Under the pieces are notes generated by a model that was given only the letters and a program-made list of their open reading frames with translations, did no database searches and was not told where the DNA came from. The position numbers were made by a program, and so were the translations under genes. A stretch of DNA of 64,000 nucleotides, taken from Arabidopsis thaliana (lineage: Eukaryota > Streptophyta > Magnoliopsida > Brassicales > Brassicaceae). The stretch is from assembly GCF_000001735.4 (NCBI RefSeq), contig NC_003070.9:4154001-4218000 (forward strand). The letters are read 5' to 3'. Positions 40,673-46,633 of this stretch are shown here, in pieces. Each line of letters begins with the position of its first letter. The first letter of the stretch is position 1.

Positions 40673-42627
40673 ATGGCTCCTTCGTCTTCATCTTCTCCTT
40701 CCAAATCTCCTGTTCCATCTCTTCACCAATCCCTTCACTTCACTCCTGTAAGTCAAAACTCTAATCCCTCTTCTTTGTTCCCCGTGGAAGAAGACAGCAC
40801 ATACCTCAATTTAGTTTTTGTTTTGTCTTTGCTCTGTCACAAAATCAAAAACTTTTCTTTCTGTCTTTCAAAAATAGTGGAATTGATAGGTTATAGCTCG
40901 AAATCTTCTTGTTTTTGCTTAAAAATGAAGGAACAGTGGCAAAAGGAGCATGTTCTGTTACCTTTTCCTCTAAAGTTTTCTCCTTTGATCTCAATGATTC
41001 CATTAGAATCTCATATTCATGTCACTTGAAGATTCTTCCAAATCCAAAGGTTTTGTTTTTCTCTCAATTTAGCATAATTTTCATTTCTCTCTCTGTTTTT
41101 TCAGATTCTAGAATGTGAAGAAGACGACCTCCAAGAAGAAAGATACAAAAACAGAGCAACACCAAGCAGCGACGGTGGTTCTTCCGCCACACCAAACCAC
41201 CAGCACCACCGCCGTACCAACAGCAACAACAACCACCAGCACACTCTAACACCTCTCCACCACAACGGCAAACCCCAAACCAGAAAACGACATGACGACA
41301 ACGACGAAGACGATGGTGGTGCCGTATCCTGCAACAAGTGTCGACCTCACCACTCTCACCGTGACAAATTCTCCGTCGTACCTCTCGAAAGCCACAACAA
41401 CCCTTCTTTCATCTCTAGCCCCAATCTCATAATCAAATCCATCTTCCAATCTCTCACACGGAGAAGCCCCAAACCTTCCTCTGCAACGGCGGCGCTTCCA
41501 CCGCGCTCTTCCTCATCCTCCGCCGCAGATGCTTCTAGAGAAGAACAGTGGCGGTTAGCTGTGGCGGAGCTTTCTCATAAACTGATTCAAGCCACGAAGA
41601 AGAAAGAAGACGCGGTTATAGAAGCTTCTAGGTTGAAATCATCCATGGCAGAGCTAGAGAAGAAACTCAATAAACTCGAGATTTACTGTCACAATCTCAA
41701 ATCAGGTCTCGACGAATGCAGCAACAAAAAACAGAGTGTTCCGATTCGAAAAGACGGATTCAACGACAGGATCATTCAGCAGTTTCTCGTCTCTGTGTCG
41801 GAATCTCGTTCTTCGATCAGAGCTTTAAGTAGATCTCTCGCCTCGCAGCTACGAACCGTCGGTGGCAAAGTTTACGAGAGACTCTCTCTTCTTCTTCAAC
41901 CTTTCGATGTAAAGATCAACTCTTTTGCCAAAAACCCTAAAAGTCTGATCTTTTACCTCGAAGCGATTCTGAGCAGAGCCTTCTTCGAGGATTTCGAAGC
42001 TCCTGGGTTTCAGAAAAACGGGTCGACCCGGATTTTGAATCCAATTGATCGTTGTGAATCCAATTACGCTTCGTTTAACGTCTTGATGGAGCTGACGTGG
42101 GATGAGGTGTTGAGCAGAGGAACGAAGCATTTCTCGGAGGAGTTTAGCCGTTTCTGTGACCGGAAGATGAGTGACGTCGTTTCGATGCTTAGCTGGAACC
42201 GTGCCTGGCCTGAACCGCTTTTACAGGTAAGCAAATGTTAAACCAACCAAACGGTTAATAATGGTTTATTTCAAAACTACTTGGATTGAACCGGTTTTTA
42301 TGGCAGGCTTTCTTTGGTGCGTCAAAGAGTGTTTGGTTGGTTCATCTTTTGGCTAATTCAGTGAACCCGGGGTTGCAAATCTTTCGTGTGGAGAAAGATG
42401 ACCGGTTTGATCCGATTTACATGGAGGAAACCGGTGGGGAACGGTTTAAGAGTCTGGTTAGAGCTATGGTTCAGCCCGGGTTTTATGTCTATGGGAGTGT
42501 GGTTAAGTGCAAGGTGGTTTGCAAGCAATGCGGCAGCGATGAGGAAGAACTAGAAGACCATACGGTCAAAGAATGTAATAAAAACGACAAGAGTTTAATA
42601 AGCATTTGTAGCCCATTAGGAGGTTAA
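40673..42627 (+). CDS. GIL1/IRKI-like plant-specific protein
   Basis: Three exons, 40673-40747, 41105-42226, 42307-42627, total 505 residues. The N-terminal 150 residues are low-complexity Ser, His, Asn and Pro (MAPSSSSSPSKSP, NSNNNHQHTL). A coiled coil follows (about 175-235, AELSHKLIQATKKKEDAVIEASRL and onward). The conserved remainder includes SRSLASQLRT, YLEAILSRAFFEDFE, FSRFCDRKMSDVVSML and the ending MVQPGFYVYGSVVKCKVVCKQC. These blocks resemble the GIL1 (DUF641) and IRK-interacting protein group linked to light gravitropism and receptor-kinase signalling. No kinase motif is present, so an annotation as a cyclin-dependent-kinase-like protein would not be supported. Likely At1g12330; specific role unknown. 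Confidence 0.85.
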
Positions 42628-42897
42628 TTACGTTCATTTAAGGTTTAAAATATTGGTGGGTTTTTGTCTTGTCTTGTGAGGTTGTAATTAAAAAAATCAA
42701 TGGCTTTTGCAAGTGAATATTTTAAAACTGTTTAATTAATGACTTTTGCAAAGAAATATCTAAGAATTAGTTGTTGTTGTTGTTGTTGTCAAAGTGATTC
42801 ATGAAAGAGTCGTTCTAAAGTAAAATATTGGCATTTTCTCGTTGGTTTCGTTATCTTTGATTTGATTACATTTACGCGCGTATTAGTAGTAACAAAA

Positions 42898-42917
42898 TGG
42901 GCCGTTTCTCAGGCCCA
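42898..42917. promoter_or_regulatory. Inverted site II elements, probable original cornichon promoter
   Basis: TGGGCC at 42898-42903 and GGCCCA at 42912-42917 face each other just upstream of the mosaic insertion. In Arabidopsis such elements sit close to transcription starts. Confidence 0.45.
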
Positions 42918-42938
42918 ATATATAGAATTTGCTAATCA

Positions 42939-43233
42939 AAATCCGAGCCTTCTCTGAAAAAGCCCATTTTTGTTCGTTCTTCCTTGTTTCTTCGATTTTC
43001 CGTGACTGATTCTGTTTTGCGAAAAGGATTGAAACAACGATGTGTAAGATACATTGATAATTTCAGCTCTGGAAATAGAGGTGCTGCTTCTACTGAGTAA
43101 GTTTTTATAGTTTTCCAGACTAAAACCCACATAAGTTTGATATGAACTGAGAAAGAGATTGTAATGAAAAACCTTGAATGTTTCCAGATGACCCATGAAC
43201 TGGAAAAAAAAAATCCTTTTCGCAAAACAGAAT
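42939..43233. repeat. Mosaic of forward and inverted fragments copied from the COAB gene
   Basis: Six adjoining blocks match the neighbouring COAB gene. 42939-43034 = 44775-44870 (forward, leader to ATG). 43035-43114 = 45140-45219 (forward, exon 2 and start of intron 2). 43115-43183 = 45520-45588 (inverted, end of exon 4 and intron 4). About 43180-43190 = 45505-45515 (forward). 43189-43213 = 45619-45643 (inverted, acceptor and start of exon 5). 43212-43233 = 44845-44866 (inverted, leader). Junctions overlap by a few bases. Nothing here codes for a protein. Confidence 0.9.
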
Positions 43234-43517
43234 TGGCTTCTCAAAACACATTTATAGGTTCATAGTTAGTTCTTATGTTGGATGTTCATGTCAGGTCTGA
43301 GAATTTACCTCCTTAAGCACAGGTTGTTCCTTTATAAATGAGCTCCATTTCGGCATAATGAAGTGAACCCTTTAGTTTTGTTTGTGTAGACTCTAATGAG
43401 AGGAGTCACTGAGACTGATAAGCTAGCAAACGGAATCTTCCATGTATAAACAGCTTGGGAAGACATTTTCTAGGAAGCTAACTTCTCTTTTCTGAATTTG
43501 AATTCTTTCATTTGCAG

Positions 43518-44032
43518 CTTGTTTGCTTAGCGGATCTCGAGTTTGATTATATCAACCCTTACGACTCTGCGTCGAGAATAAACTCAGTGGTTTTACCGGA
43601 GTTCATTGTTCAAGGAGTTCTATGCGTATTCTACCTCCTAACAGGACACTGGTTCATGACACTCTTATGTCTCCCCTATCTCTACTACAATTTCCATCTG
43701 TAAGTCCAACTAATCTCAATCTTTTGCTCCAATCAAATGTTGTGGTATTGATATCCTTTCGGTTTCTCCGTTGTTCAGTTACTCGAAGCGACAACACTTA
43801 GTAGATGTCACCGAGATCTTCAATTTGCTAAACTGGGAGAAGAAGAAACGGCTGTTCAAGCTTGCTTACATTGTCCTTAACCTCTTTCTCACTATCTTCT
43901 GGTAACGAGAAAAGATATTTCGAATCCCATTATTGCTTAACCATAAGTAGATCAAGAGAGCTAAAACACTTTCTGTCTGCAACTTTTTTTCGTAGGATGA
44001 TTTATTCGGCGCTGGATGATTACGAGGACTGA
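43518..44032 (+). pseudogene. Cornichon homolog lacking its first exon
   Basis: Three exons, 43518-43699, 43779-43901 and 43996-44032, join in frame to 113 residues: [39 protein letters not shown], and the ending WMIYSALDDYED. Cornichon proteins are ER cargo receptors with three to four membrane segments that help load COPII vesicles. The family normally starts with about 24 more residues forming the first membrane helix; no such exon is seen between 42628 and 43517, where the COAB-derived mosaic lies. The open frame upstream of 43518 ends at a TAA (43479-43481) with no ATG. The rest has no stops and good splice sites, so it is either recently broken or uses an unrecognised first exon. Corresponds to At1g12340. 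Confidence 0.75.
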
Positions 44033-44869
44033 CTAATGAAGAAGACATGGTCCATCTTCTTCGGTTTATTGACACTACGCTTAAAGATACAGCGACATGC
44101 TCGTGGACATGAAAAAAAGCAAGGAAAAGTGTTTGCTTTGTGATGTTTGTAAGATTAGTGGCAGGAAGATTTGTGTATTTATTTATTTCTTAGAAACATG
44201 TTCAGATTAACTGTTTTTTTTTTATCTTATGTCTTGATCATTATTTGTACAAGCAATCAAGCTCGTAAACTACTGGTTACAGTAACAATGAAACTGAATA
44301 TTTTCAAATATAAGAAGAAAAAAAGTTAATTCATGTGAACTTTGACTTTTAAAAGTGGGAAACCCTTTAGAGTGATGTAATAAACGAGAACTTAAAAGAT
44401 GATTCGAACCTTCTGTTTCAGTTTGGTAATTAGGTTATCTTATAAAGCTAATCCTTCTCTCACACTGACAATCGTCGTTATCAAGGTGATTTCTTTCTCT
44501 GCGTCAAACATCGCTTACCCTCTTGATTGATTCCTCCAATCTTCTTCGTGTGGTTTCACAGGTGTGTGGTTGATCTCTAGACCCAATTGATGTGGTTCCA
44601 TCCTATTTTTATTTGGTCTGTAATCGTAAAGTCTTTAAGATTTGGGAATCGAGTTTATGTTGTGGTGTTTAGGTAGCGAAACCCCAGTTATTAAATCGTT
44701 GCATCTAGTAATTTGGGGTCCTTTAATTGAAACAAAGGATTAATCTTTCATTCATCTTTGTTCGTTCATTAGCGAAATCCGAGCCTTCTCTGAAAAAGCC
44801 CATTTTTGTTCGTTCTTCCTTGTTTCTTCGATTTTCCGTGACTGATTCTGTTTTGCGAAAAGGATTGAA
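44033..44869. other. Spacer and leader of COAB
   Basis: About 840 bases with the cornichon 3' UTR and the COAB promoter and leader. 44775-44870 is the source of the first block of the mosaic. No other gene. Confidence 0.6.
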
Positions 44870-46633
44870 ATGAGTTCGATCTCTGGATTGGTGGAAGATG
44901 AAATCAGTTCGTTTTTCGAATCGTCTCCACCTCTGAAGAACAAGGAAGAGATCGTAGCCAATCTTAATCAGTTCATTGAGCTGAATTCTTCGTGTCAAGG
45001 TGAGATCAGAATTTGTGTATATATGTAACATTTTGATTTCTGAATGACTTAAAGAGGGTTTTTTCTTTCTTTTATTTTATCAGGAGGGATGAGGAGGATT
45101 GTATGTGTGACTTCAGGTGGAACTACAGTTCCATTGGAGCAACGATGTGTAAGATACATTGATAATTTCAGCTCTGGAAATAGAGGTGCTGCTTCTACTG
45201 AGTAAGTTTTTATAGTTTTTGTTTTCAATTACTCTTTATAGAACTGGTAAAAATATATATTATTGAATACAAACTTTGGTTTTGATTTGGATTGCAAAGG
45301 AATTTCGTCAAGGCTGGATATGCTGTGATATTTCTCTATAGGAGGTAACAATTTGAATGTTGTTTTGTATTTCTCAGCTGTGTGTAGTTTAAAGATTTAG
45401 TGAAATGATGCTTCTTTATATCGGTTCTATTATGTCATCTTTAGGGGAACTTGTCAACCGTATTGCCGGTATCTTCCTGATGATCCATTCCTTGAATGTT
45501 TTGAGTTTCCAGATGCCAAAAACATTCAAGGTTTTTCATTACAATCTCTTTCTCAGTTCATATCAAACTTATGTGGGTTTTAGTCTGGTATTGTAACAAA
45601 TTATGTGTTTTTTGTTCATTTTTTTTTTCCAGTTCATGGGTCACATTCAGGAGCTGTGAAGATGGCTGTTATGGACCAGCAAGCTGTATGCTTAGACCAA
45701 CTGTGTTTTATTTTACGGAAAGCTGATTACTTTTATGTATTTTCGAGTCTTTTGTGTAGTAACCGTGCAAATTAACATTGCAGGCAGTTGCAGAAGGTCG
45801 CTTGCTTAAACTCCCATTCTCAACCATATATGAATATCTCCAGGTTCTTAAATCTTACACTAGCTACTTCAGTCATATTGTTTTGTCTTGACACATAAAA
45901 TGTAATCTTAACTGCCTAAGAAACCATTAGAATTTATCTCAATGCTTGTGGGATTTCTTTAACAGGGCTGCAACTGAGATTATTTTTCTTTGGAATACAA
46001 ACAGATGTTGCGGTTGATTGCTACGATATTGAAAGATGTCGGTCCATGTTCGATGTTTTATCTTGCTGCTGCTGTATCTGACTTCTATGTGCCATGGTTA
46101 AGCATGGCAAGAGTCTCATCATATCCCTGTGATTATGGCTACACAATTCTTGCGTCTGAAAATTGACTTCTTATATATTTGTGAAACCAGACAGAGCACA
46201 AAATAGAATCAGGATCTGGTCCTTTGGACATAAGACTAGCTCAAGTCCCTAAAATGCTTTCAATCTTGAGATCAAATTGGGCTCCAAAGGCTTTCTGCAT
46301 ATCATTCAAGGTCAGCTCTCTCCTTCTCCATTCTCTCTCTTTATTGTATTAGTTGTCCATAATTTGATTATTAAAATAGAATTATGTATCCAGCTTGAGA
46401 CAGACTCAAAGATTTTGCTAGAGAAAGCTACAAAGGCTTTACAAAAATACAAAGTGCACGCAGTTGTAGCAAATGAACTATTAACGCGTAAGGAGGAAGT
46501 TGTGGTTGTTTCAAGTAGCGGTAATGTTGTGGTGAGACGTGATAGCAATAAGCCGGAATCTATCGTAGAAGATAATCTCATTCGTCTCCTCGTAGATCGA
46601 CATTCAACATACATCAAAGAATCTCTCACTTGA
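44870..46633 (+). CDS. COAB: Phosphopantothenate-cysteine ligase (CoaB)
   Basis: Nine exons: 44870-44999, 45084-45201, 45300-45344, 45445-45530, 45633-45685, 45784-45843, 46005-46106, 46191-46310, 46394-46633, total 317 residues. It joins 4'-phosphopantothenate with cysteine in coenzyme A synthesis; the plant and animal form is a separate protein from CoaC. Motifs: [11 protein letters not shown] (about 50), the Asn-rich loop [15 protein letters not shown] (about 70-84), [12 protein letters not shown] (about 185), and the C-terminal [15 protein letters not shown]. The seventh intron has to use a GC donor (ATG|GCAAGA, GC at 46107-46108), because the nearby GTTAAG donor creates an in-frame TGA. 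Recognised as At1g12350. Confidence 0.94.

Follow-up and report, generated by a model that had tools for sequence, protein, structure and literature searches.

Background

Break repair that brings copied DNA of several origins between duplicated flanks is an already known kind of event, on which the original plant papers are reportedly those of Vaughn and Bennetzen 2014 and Schiml et al. 2016. In the available text of PMC7407515, rice insertions are summarised as partially tandem duplications that carry inserts of local and of ectopic origin, and are ascribed to asymmetric nicks and end joining; these inserts measure 10-1000 bp and their local sources lie within 200 bp. Tandem duplications at breaks with overhangs are reported for mouse and human cells in the accessible part of PMC8355091. 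The MMBIR model (Hastings et al. 2009, PMC2621351), as its available text presents it, invokes switches to different positions and orientations at 2-5 bp of microhomology, and explains duplications by synthesis that resumes behind the point of collapse. The polymerase theta fillers of Arabidopsis are described in the accessible text of PMC10923293 as short, copied mostly from the immediate flanks of the break or from other donor molecules, and accompanied by deletions. In maize p1 alleles (PMC3014980, in the text available), break repair with filler alters the regulatory surroundings of a gene.

The locus considered here, next to the COAB gene of Arabidopsis thaliana, is a repair scar of this known kind in an unusually readable case. 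Like the rice insertions as the accessible text of PMC7407515 describes them, it displays a duplicated flank and an insert drawn from several places near the break and from an ectopic donor. The duplicated flank is a 96-bp direct repeat, the left copy of which adjoins a promoter resembling that of the paralogue COAB2. Unlike in the rice cases, 1836 bp are involved, the local sources extend to about 0.8 kb and one 1.5-kb stretch contains most of a gene together with promoter DNA. Serial switches and both orientations are shared with MMBIR/FoSTeS as the available sources present it, as are, more tentatively, small overlaps and a duplication attributable to synthesis on return. That mechanism is described there for human copy-number variants, and two junctions here are without exact overlap; for the present locus, an origin in replication is conjectural. 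The short pieces copied from the flanks (blocks B to F below) resemble polymerase theta fillers, which in the accessible text of PMC10923293 fit such pieces better than the 1.5-kb stretch or the duplicated flank found here. The maize alleles show fillers 9-13 bp long, fragments of transposons and altered enhancers, with no exchange of promoters between two genes in the available text of PMC3014980.

A source is available for almost all inserted bases, and the order before the insertion can be inferred within the same genome by means of COAB2; the 1.5-kb part of the tract serves as a clock; and the locus connects the repair of a break both with new regulatory surroundings for two genes and with the way in which AtCNIH2, an annotated gene, arose.

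Sequences and methods

The window is the whole 64,000-nucleotide stretch of DNA that was analysed (C1:4154001-4218000); unqualified coordinates refer to it. Genome searches covered the 119.66-Mb assembly in 7 contigs. The donor locus was found by a whole-genome search with 42800-43400, in which a second locus matched from 43232 on. The COAB exon map was built by hand and comprises six exons, with AG/GT at the five internal introns. The translation of COAB (164 aa) matches 3 sequences of phosphopantothenate-cysteine ligases with solved structures (best E 1e-23), as well as the Pfam DFP family. The name CNIH4 is used for At1g12390, following one published numbering. Locus names AT1G12330, AT1G12350 and AT1G12400 are used as we assume them to apply.

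Structure of the inserted tract

A preliminary description of the window had reported six pieces of COAB, in mixed order and both orientations, at 42939-43233. Local alignment and exact-match mapping both find this segment to consist of exact COAB pieces, arranged as described. Local alignment on both strands recovers blocks A, B, C, E and F, with E-values within the window of 1e-48 to 7e-6. The segment is nevertheless only the left end of the tract. It continues gaplessly into 43232-44763, a 97% copy of distant DNA, and the full tract is about 6 times larger than the 295 bp first noticed. The coordinates of the described insertion thus stand, with the exception of 43233 as the end of the tract, since the copy continues from 43232. 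The features are as follows.

42628-42938, forward strand: probable original promoter region of COAB, today preceding the cornichon copy, with the COAB2 match at its right end
42939-43034, forward strand: block A, 5'UTR of COAB, interpreted as the original in place (96/96 to 44775-44870)
43035-43114, forward strand: block B, end of COAB exon 2 and first bases of intron 2 (80/80 to 45140-45219)
43115-43183, reverse strand: block C, inverted start of COAB intron 4 and end of exon 4 (69/69 to 45588-45520)
43180-43190, forward strand: block D, a scrap of 11 bp from COAB exon 4, weak when taken alone (11/11 to 45505-45515)
43189-43214, reverse strand: block E, inverted end of COAB intron 4 and start of exon 5 (26/26 to 45643-45618)
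43212-43233, reverse strand: block F, end of the COAB 5'UTR in inverted orientation (22/22 to 44866-44845)
43232-44757, forward strand: CNIH4-TFB5 copy (source C1:4220682-4222206)
44757-44767, forward strand: 11-bp scrap, exact match to COAB 5'UTR 44805-44815
44768-44774, forward strand: ATTAGCG, without convincing template
44775-44870, forward strand: COAB 5'UTR in its second copy, continuous with the coding region of the gene (ATG 44870)

According to the exon map, block B spans the exon 2 donor, block C the exon 4 donor and block E the exon 5 acceptor, so that intron sequence is present in all three. The splice donor GTAAGT of COAB intron 2 is found at 43097, within block B, which BLAST extends leftward by 7 more bases with 2 mismatches. 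The smallest pieces are less certain. An 11-mer covering the 5 otherwise unexplained bases of block D is given equally by 20/2000 Markov-resampled templates, and the scrap at 44757-44767, 10 bases of which belong to the 17-bp right end, is matched equally by 14/2000 resampled templates. For ATTAGCG, exact-match mapping returned candidate templates only 7-8 bp long, and these were rejected.

Between the starts of both copies of block A lie 1836 bp. The COAB part is made of 96 bp from A, 80 from B, 69 from C, 5 further from D, 26 from E and 19 further from F; the rest is accounted for by 1524 further bases of the CNIH4-TFB5 copy (to 44757) and the 17 bp of the right end. Source mapping therefore assigns all but 7 of the 1836 bp.

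Donor of the cornichon copy

The copy contains part of CNIH4 intron 1, exons 2-4, the 3' region and the region upstream of TFB5. Aligned with C1:4220682-4222212, the stretch 43232-44763 is identical in 1495 of the 1540 columns. BLAST carries the homology to 44763 across one mismatch; the rival reading, which ends at 44757, differs by those few bases. The donor locus lies 21.8 kb beyond the break and possesses cornichon exon 1 (MGDIWTWL...) and exons 2-4, with TFB5 (Pfam Tfb5) downstream. The TFB5 start codon was placed at 4222296, and the copied region ends 84-90 bp before it. The left end of the copy falls inside CNIH4 intron 1, and the first exon of CNIH4 is absent from the copy.

As CNIH4 retains both exon 1 and the neighbouring TFB5, the polarity runs from CNIH4 to the copy. 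At least 4 Brassica records among the matches listed (P0010-P0013) are predicted proteins that combine a cornichon domain with a TFB5 domain, and the cornichon-TFB5 neighbourhood therefore predates the copy. The reverse direction, with CNIH2 as the source of CNIH4, was rejected on these same two grounds.

Probable ancestral order of the locus

The region 42628-42938 starts after the stop codon (42627) of an upstream forward-strand frame. At its right end, direct comparison aligns 42897-42944 with C5:409623-409670, which immediately precedes COAB2 (E 3e-6); in a genome search, 41900-42945 matched nothing besides itself. Compared with the DNA upstream of COAB2, the left flank obtains a score of 45, which 0/2000 dinucleotide shuffles reach, and the present-day COAB upstream region a score of 24, reached by 129/2000 shuffles. 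Within the old COAB promoter region, a 22-nt element, TGGGCCGTTTCTCAGGCCCAAT, occupies 42898-42919. A genome-wide search for TGGGCCGTTTCTNAGGCCCAAT with up to 2 mismatches gives only two exact sites, one at 42898 of the window and the other in front of COAB2 at 409624; a third site, on C3, has one mismatch, and the reversed control gives 0 sites. The distance from the element to the start codon is 136 bp in COAB2 and 1972 bp in COAB today, and becomes 136 bp once the 1836 bp are subtracted. This equality is partly due to chance, the two start codons not being exactly homologous: the coding sequence of COAB extends about 21 bases further at its beginning than that of COAB2.

The paralogue COAB2 indicates the order before the insertion, in which the promoter would have led directly into the 5'UTR and COAB. 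Since the COAB2-like promoter is contiguous with block A, this block is most likely the original COAB 5'UTR in place, and blocks B to F would have been copied from DNA adjacent to the break. The match of block A to COAB is thus complete, as first noted, but its inclusion among the inserted pieces is better replaced by a reading as the original copy. With block A original, 1836 bp would have been added, flanked by the 96-bp direct repeat. The preliminary description had also placed the template 1.8-2.5 kb away. That distance does not hold: without the insertion COAB would start at the break, and the copied COAB pieces would have come from within about 0.8 kb of it. Taken together, the structure of the tract and its order before the insertion are, on the sequence evidence, very probably as given here.

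Junctions and proposed mechanism of repair

The junction overlaps amount to 0 bp for A/B, 0 for B/C, 4 for C/D, 2 for D/E, 3 for E/F, 2 for F/CNIH4 and 1 for CNIH4/A', that is 2-4 bp at 4 of the 7 junctions, 1 bp at one and none at two. Exact-match mapping returns GTTT (43180-43183) and TG (43189-43190) as originally claimed, and the overlap between block F and the cornichon copy is AT (43232-43233). The A/B junction has 0 exact overlap but a 7-bp imperfect match. Over the seven junctions the overlaps sum to 12, compared with a random mean of 8.4 (P 0.023), a result that leans on the weak block D; over the first six they sum to 11 (P 0.019). Microhomology support for template switching is moderate; the lack of exact overlap at A/B and B/C and the dependence on block D count against the reading preferred below.

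The reading we prefer, with a probability of roughly one half, is that the whole tract arose at once, through serial template switching during the repair of a break at the COAB 5'UTR. In the ancestor, the COAB promoter (to 42938) would have been directly contiguous with the 5'UTR and the gene. A break would have occurred at the 5'UTR, with the left side retaining a 5'UTR (block A). The strand growing from the left would then have copied COAB exon 2 and intron 2 (B), followed by scraps C (inverted), D (forward), E and F (both inverted) from the first 0.8 kb of COAB, joined mostly through overlaps of 2-4 bp. A switch to the locus 21.8 kb off would have allowed about 1.5 kb to be copied, beginning in CNIH4 intron 1 and stopping shortly before TFB5. 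The return would have proceeded through the 11-bp 5'UTR scrap and 7 bases without assigned source, to end in a join to the other side, which also bore the 5'UTR. The 96-bp end repeat may stem from fill-in synthesis at the two sides of a staggered break or from synthesis returning behind its start; the sequence fits both fill-in and an MMBIR-type return, which would yield the same repeat. We infer the type of break, the enzymes, the singleness of the event and any transcriptional effect.

Template switching, as proposed at the outset, is supported: short pieces in both orientations from next to the break, overlaps that are mostly small, a long stretch of distant origin and a flank present twice agree with break repair by such synthesis. 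The source of block A starts 12-18 bp from the right end of the cornichon copy, a proximity directly explained by one insertion at one site.

Divergence and age

The cornichon copy differs from its donor at 28/1523 aligned bases, with 17 gap columns in addition, and at 23/1181 noncoding positions; the COAB blocks differ from their source at 0/295. The recent origin suggested in the preliminary description calls for caution: the COAB blocks are free of differences, but the adjoining cornichon copy, with 28/1523, is not a fresh copy, nor is it a duplicate created in assembly. The mutation rate is near 7e-9 per site and generation; given this rate, 1.8% between the copies would correspond to a time of the order of one million generations.

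The divergence is unevenly distributed. In an alignment cut at 44757, 12/1118 bases differ left of 44358 and 15/399 right of it, and a change point near 44358 as strong as this one is reached by 172/5000 permutations (133/5000 with noncoding sites only). Compared with the 0/295 of the COAB blocks, Fisher tests give 0.00027 for the right part (0.0037 with blocks B to F alone), 0.083 for the left part, 0.19 for the left noncoding sites (6/718) and 0.008 for all noncoding sites (0.064 with blocks B to F alone). The zero agrees with the left part but not with the right part, and disfavours one age for all noncoding sites; this unevenness speaks against the single-event reading.

These figures bear on a possible alternative in two steps, to which we give some, though limited, credence. 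An older CNIH4-TFB5 copy would have been inserted between the promoter and COAB with duplication of the 5'UTR; later, a break at the left side of this copy would have been repaired from CNIH4 and COAB scraps, the CNIH4 repair being an ectopic gene conversion over about 43232-44358. The change point is consistent with such a history, as is the fact that the zero count differs from the right part and not clearly from the left. The change point is nevertheless modest and was picked after looking, and a zero is unremarkable beside the left noncoding sites. The data could also result from gene conversion by itself, from mutation rates that vary by region or from constraint on the exons and 5'UTR of COAB. 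The uneven divergence could reflect such constraint, gene conversion in the cornichon part, differing regional rates or a younger second repair. Owing to this unevenness, one event is only somewhat more probable than two.

Divided at another point, the segment 44301-44763 differs from C1:4221749-4222212 at 17/462 positions, above the 11/1061 of the cornichon part to 44300. For this excess near COAB, gene conversion, a regional rate or two ages are candidate causes.

Other origins of the tract

Polymerase theta end joining alone, by iterative short extensions on both ends of the break, is an improbable source of the entire filler. The pieces are short, of both orientations and of local source, with small overlaps, and in Arabidopsis this route typically leaves templated fillers, according to the accessible text of PMC10923293; 1.5 kb from 21.8 kb away and a duplicated 96-bp flank are unlike the cases presented there, although a deletion next to the duplicated flank is conceivable. 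Polymerase theta could have produced the scraps, though scarcely the tract in full.

An assembly or cloning artefact, conceivable insofar as the COAB blocks match their source at every base and one assembly was examined, is very improbable: neither 28/1523 differences with 17 gap columns, unexpected from misassembly of the same DNA, nor a COAB2-like promoter exactly at the left edge agrees with it. Gene capture by a transposable element, which would bring pieces of several genes together between direct repeats, or a retrocopy, can practically be dismissed, because all but 7 inserted bases derive from COAB or CNIH4-TFB5 and leave no space for an element, the direct repeat is COAB 5'UTR, and introns and intergenic DNA are kept in the blocks and the cornichon copy, as the early exclusion of a retrocopy had held. 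No element ends or element sequence were seen around the captured DNA, and the matches listed by genome searches with 42800-43400 and 43232-44400 comprised only the locus, its sources and cornichon or COAB paralogues.

The cornichon copy as a predicted gene

The copy at 43232-44763 appears to be the annotated gene AtCNIH2. We take it to be At1g12340, an identification supported by the 129-aa frame, 129 aa being, as we assume, also the annotated length. At1g12340 is listed as AtCNIH2 beside other cornichons in the accessible parts of published papers, which disagree in their numbering of Arabidopsis cornichons yet keep this name throughout; in the main texts of the literature listing At1g12340 the word pseudogene is absent. 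The coding exons, predicted from splice sites and frame, are:

43390-43443, 43518-43699, 43779-43901 and 43996-44032, forward strand: predicted AtCNIH2 coding exons

The predicted protein starts at ATG 43396, has 129 aa and is devoid of CNIH4 exon 1; one 5-codon upstream frame precedes this ATG in the predicted transcript, for which block B would supply the splice donor. The 129-aa frame matches Pfam Cornichon from profile position 18, the first part being missing. Exon 43390-43443 corresponds to the cassette exon TLMRGVTETDKLANGIFH of A. thaliana record P0001, to part of which the 113-aa cornichon portion is 100% identical. No separate AtCNIH2 protein record appeared among the matches listed (120 of 773). 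AtCNIH2 and CNIH4 differ at 5 coding positions, all synonymous and too few for an assessment of selection; outgroup bases assign 3 of the 5 changes to CNIH4 and 2 to CNIH2.

Predicted consequences for the two genes

COAB is now located behind TFB5-upstream DNA, and the cornichon copy behind the old core promoter and 5'UTR of COAB. An exchange of promoters between COAB and AtCNIH2 is accordingly a prediction from the arrangement. The AG at 44771-44772, 3' of a T-rich stretch, is a possible 3' splice site. If the TFB5-derived leader were spliced to TTAG/CG at 44772, the only ATG would be COAB's own; unspliced, the leader would contain three ATGs, COAB's included. For this count the leader exon was ended at 44484, one base short of the donor CAAG/GTGATT.

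It is tentatively proposed, as a rather unlikely reading in its complete form, that one tract both exchanged promoters and made a gene. COAB would be driven by TFB5-upstream DNA with a repair-made 3' splice site TTAG/CG (44769-44774), and AtCNIH2, a young chimeric gene, by the COAB promoter, 5'UTR and exon 2 donor. Should transcripts agree, COAB and AtCNIH2 would constitute a natural test of a promoter loss survived and of a promoter gained by a partial copy.

The literature searched, which comprised titles and the starts of abstracts, returned neither a description of the locus nor the locus name At1g12350. Within it, AtCNIH2 as a repair-made partial copy, the severance of COAB from its ancestral promoter and the occurrence of both in one tract seem undescribed.

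Related cornichon sequences

A 54-nt in-frame cassette exon is situated in intron 1 of both cornichon loci (43390-43443; about 4840-4893 of L009). It is included in record P0001 (155 aa) and absent from records P0003 and P0009. Elsewhere in the genome, C4:1141437-1141757 (L010) matches 43266-43553 with about 80% identity, covering a fragment of cornichon intron 1, the cassette exon and the start of exon 2. This fragment adjoins a long T run, no other cornichon exon being matched on that stretch, and is probably an older partial copy of the cornichon gene.
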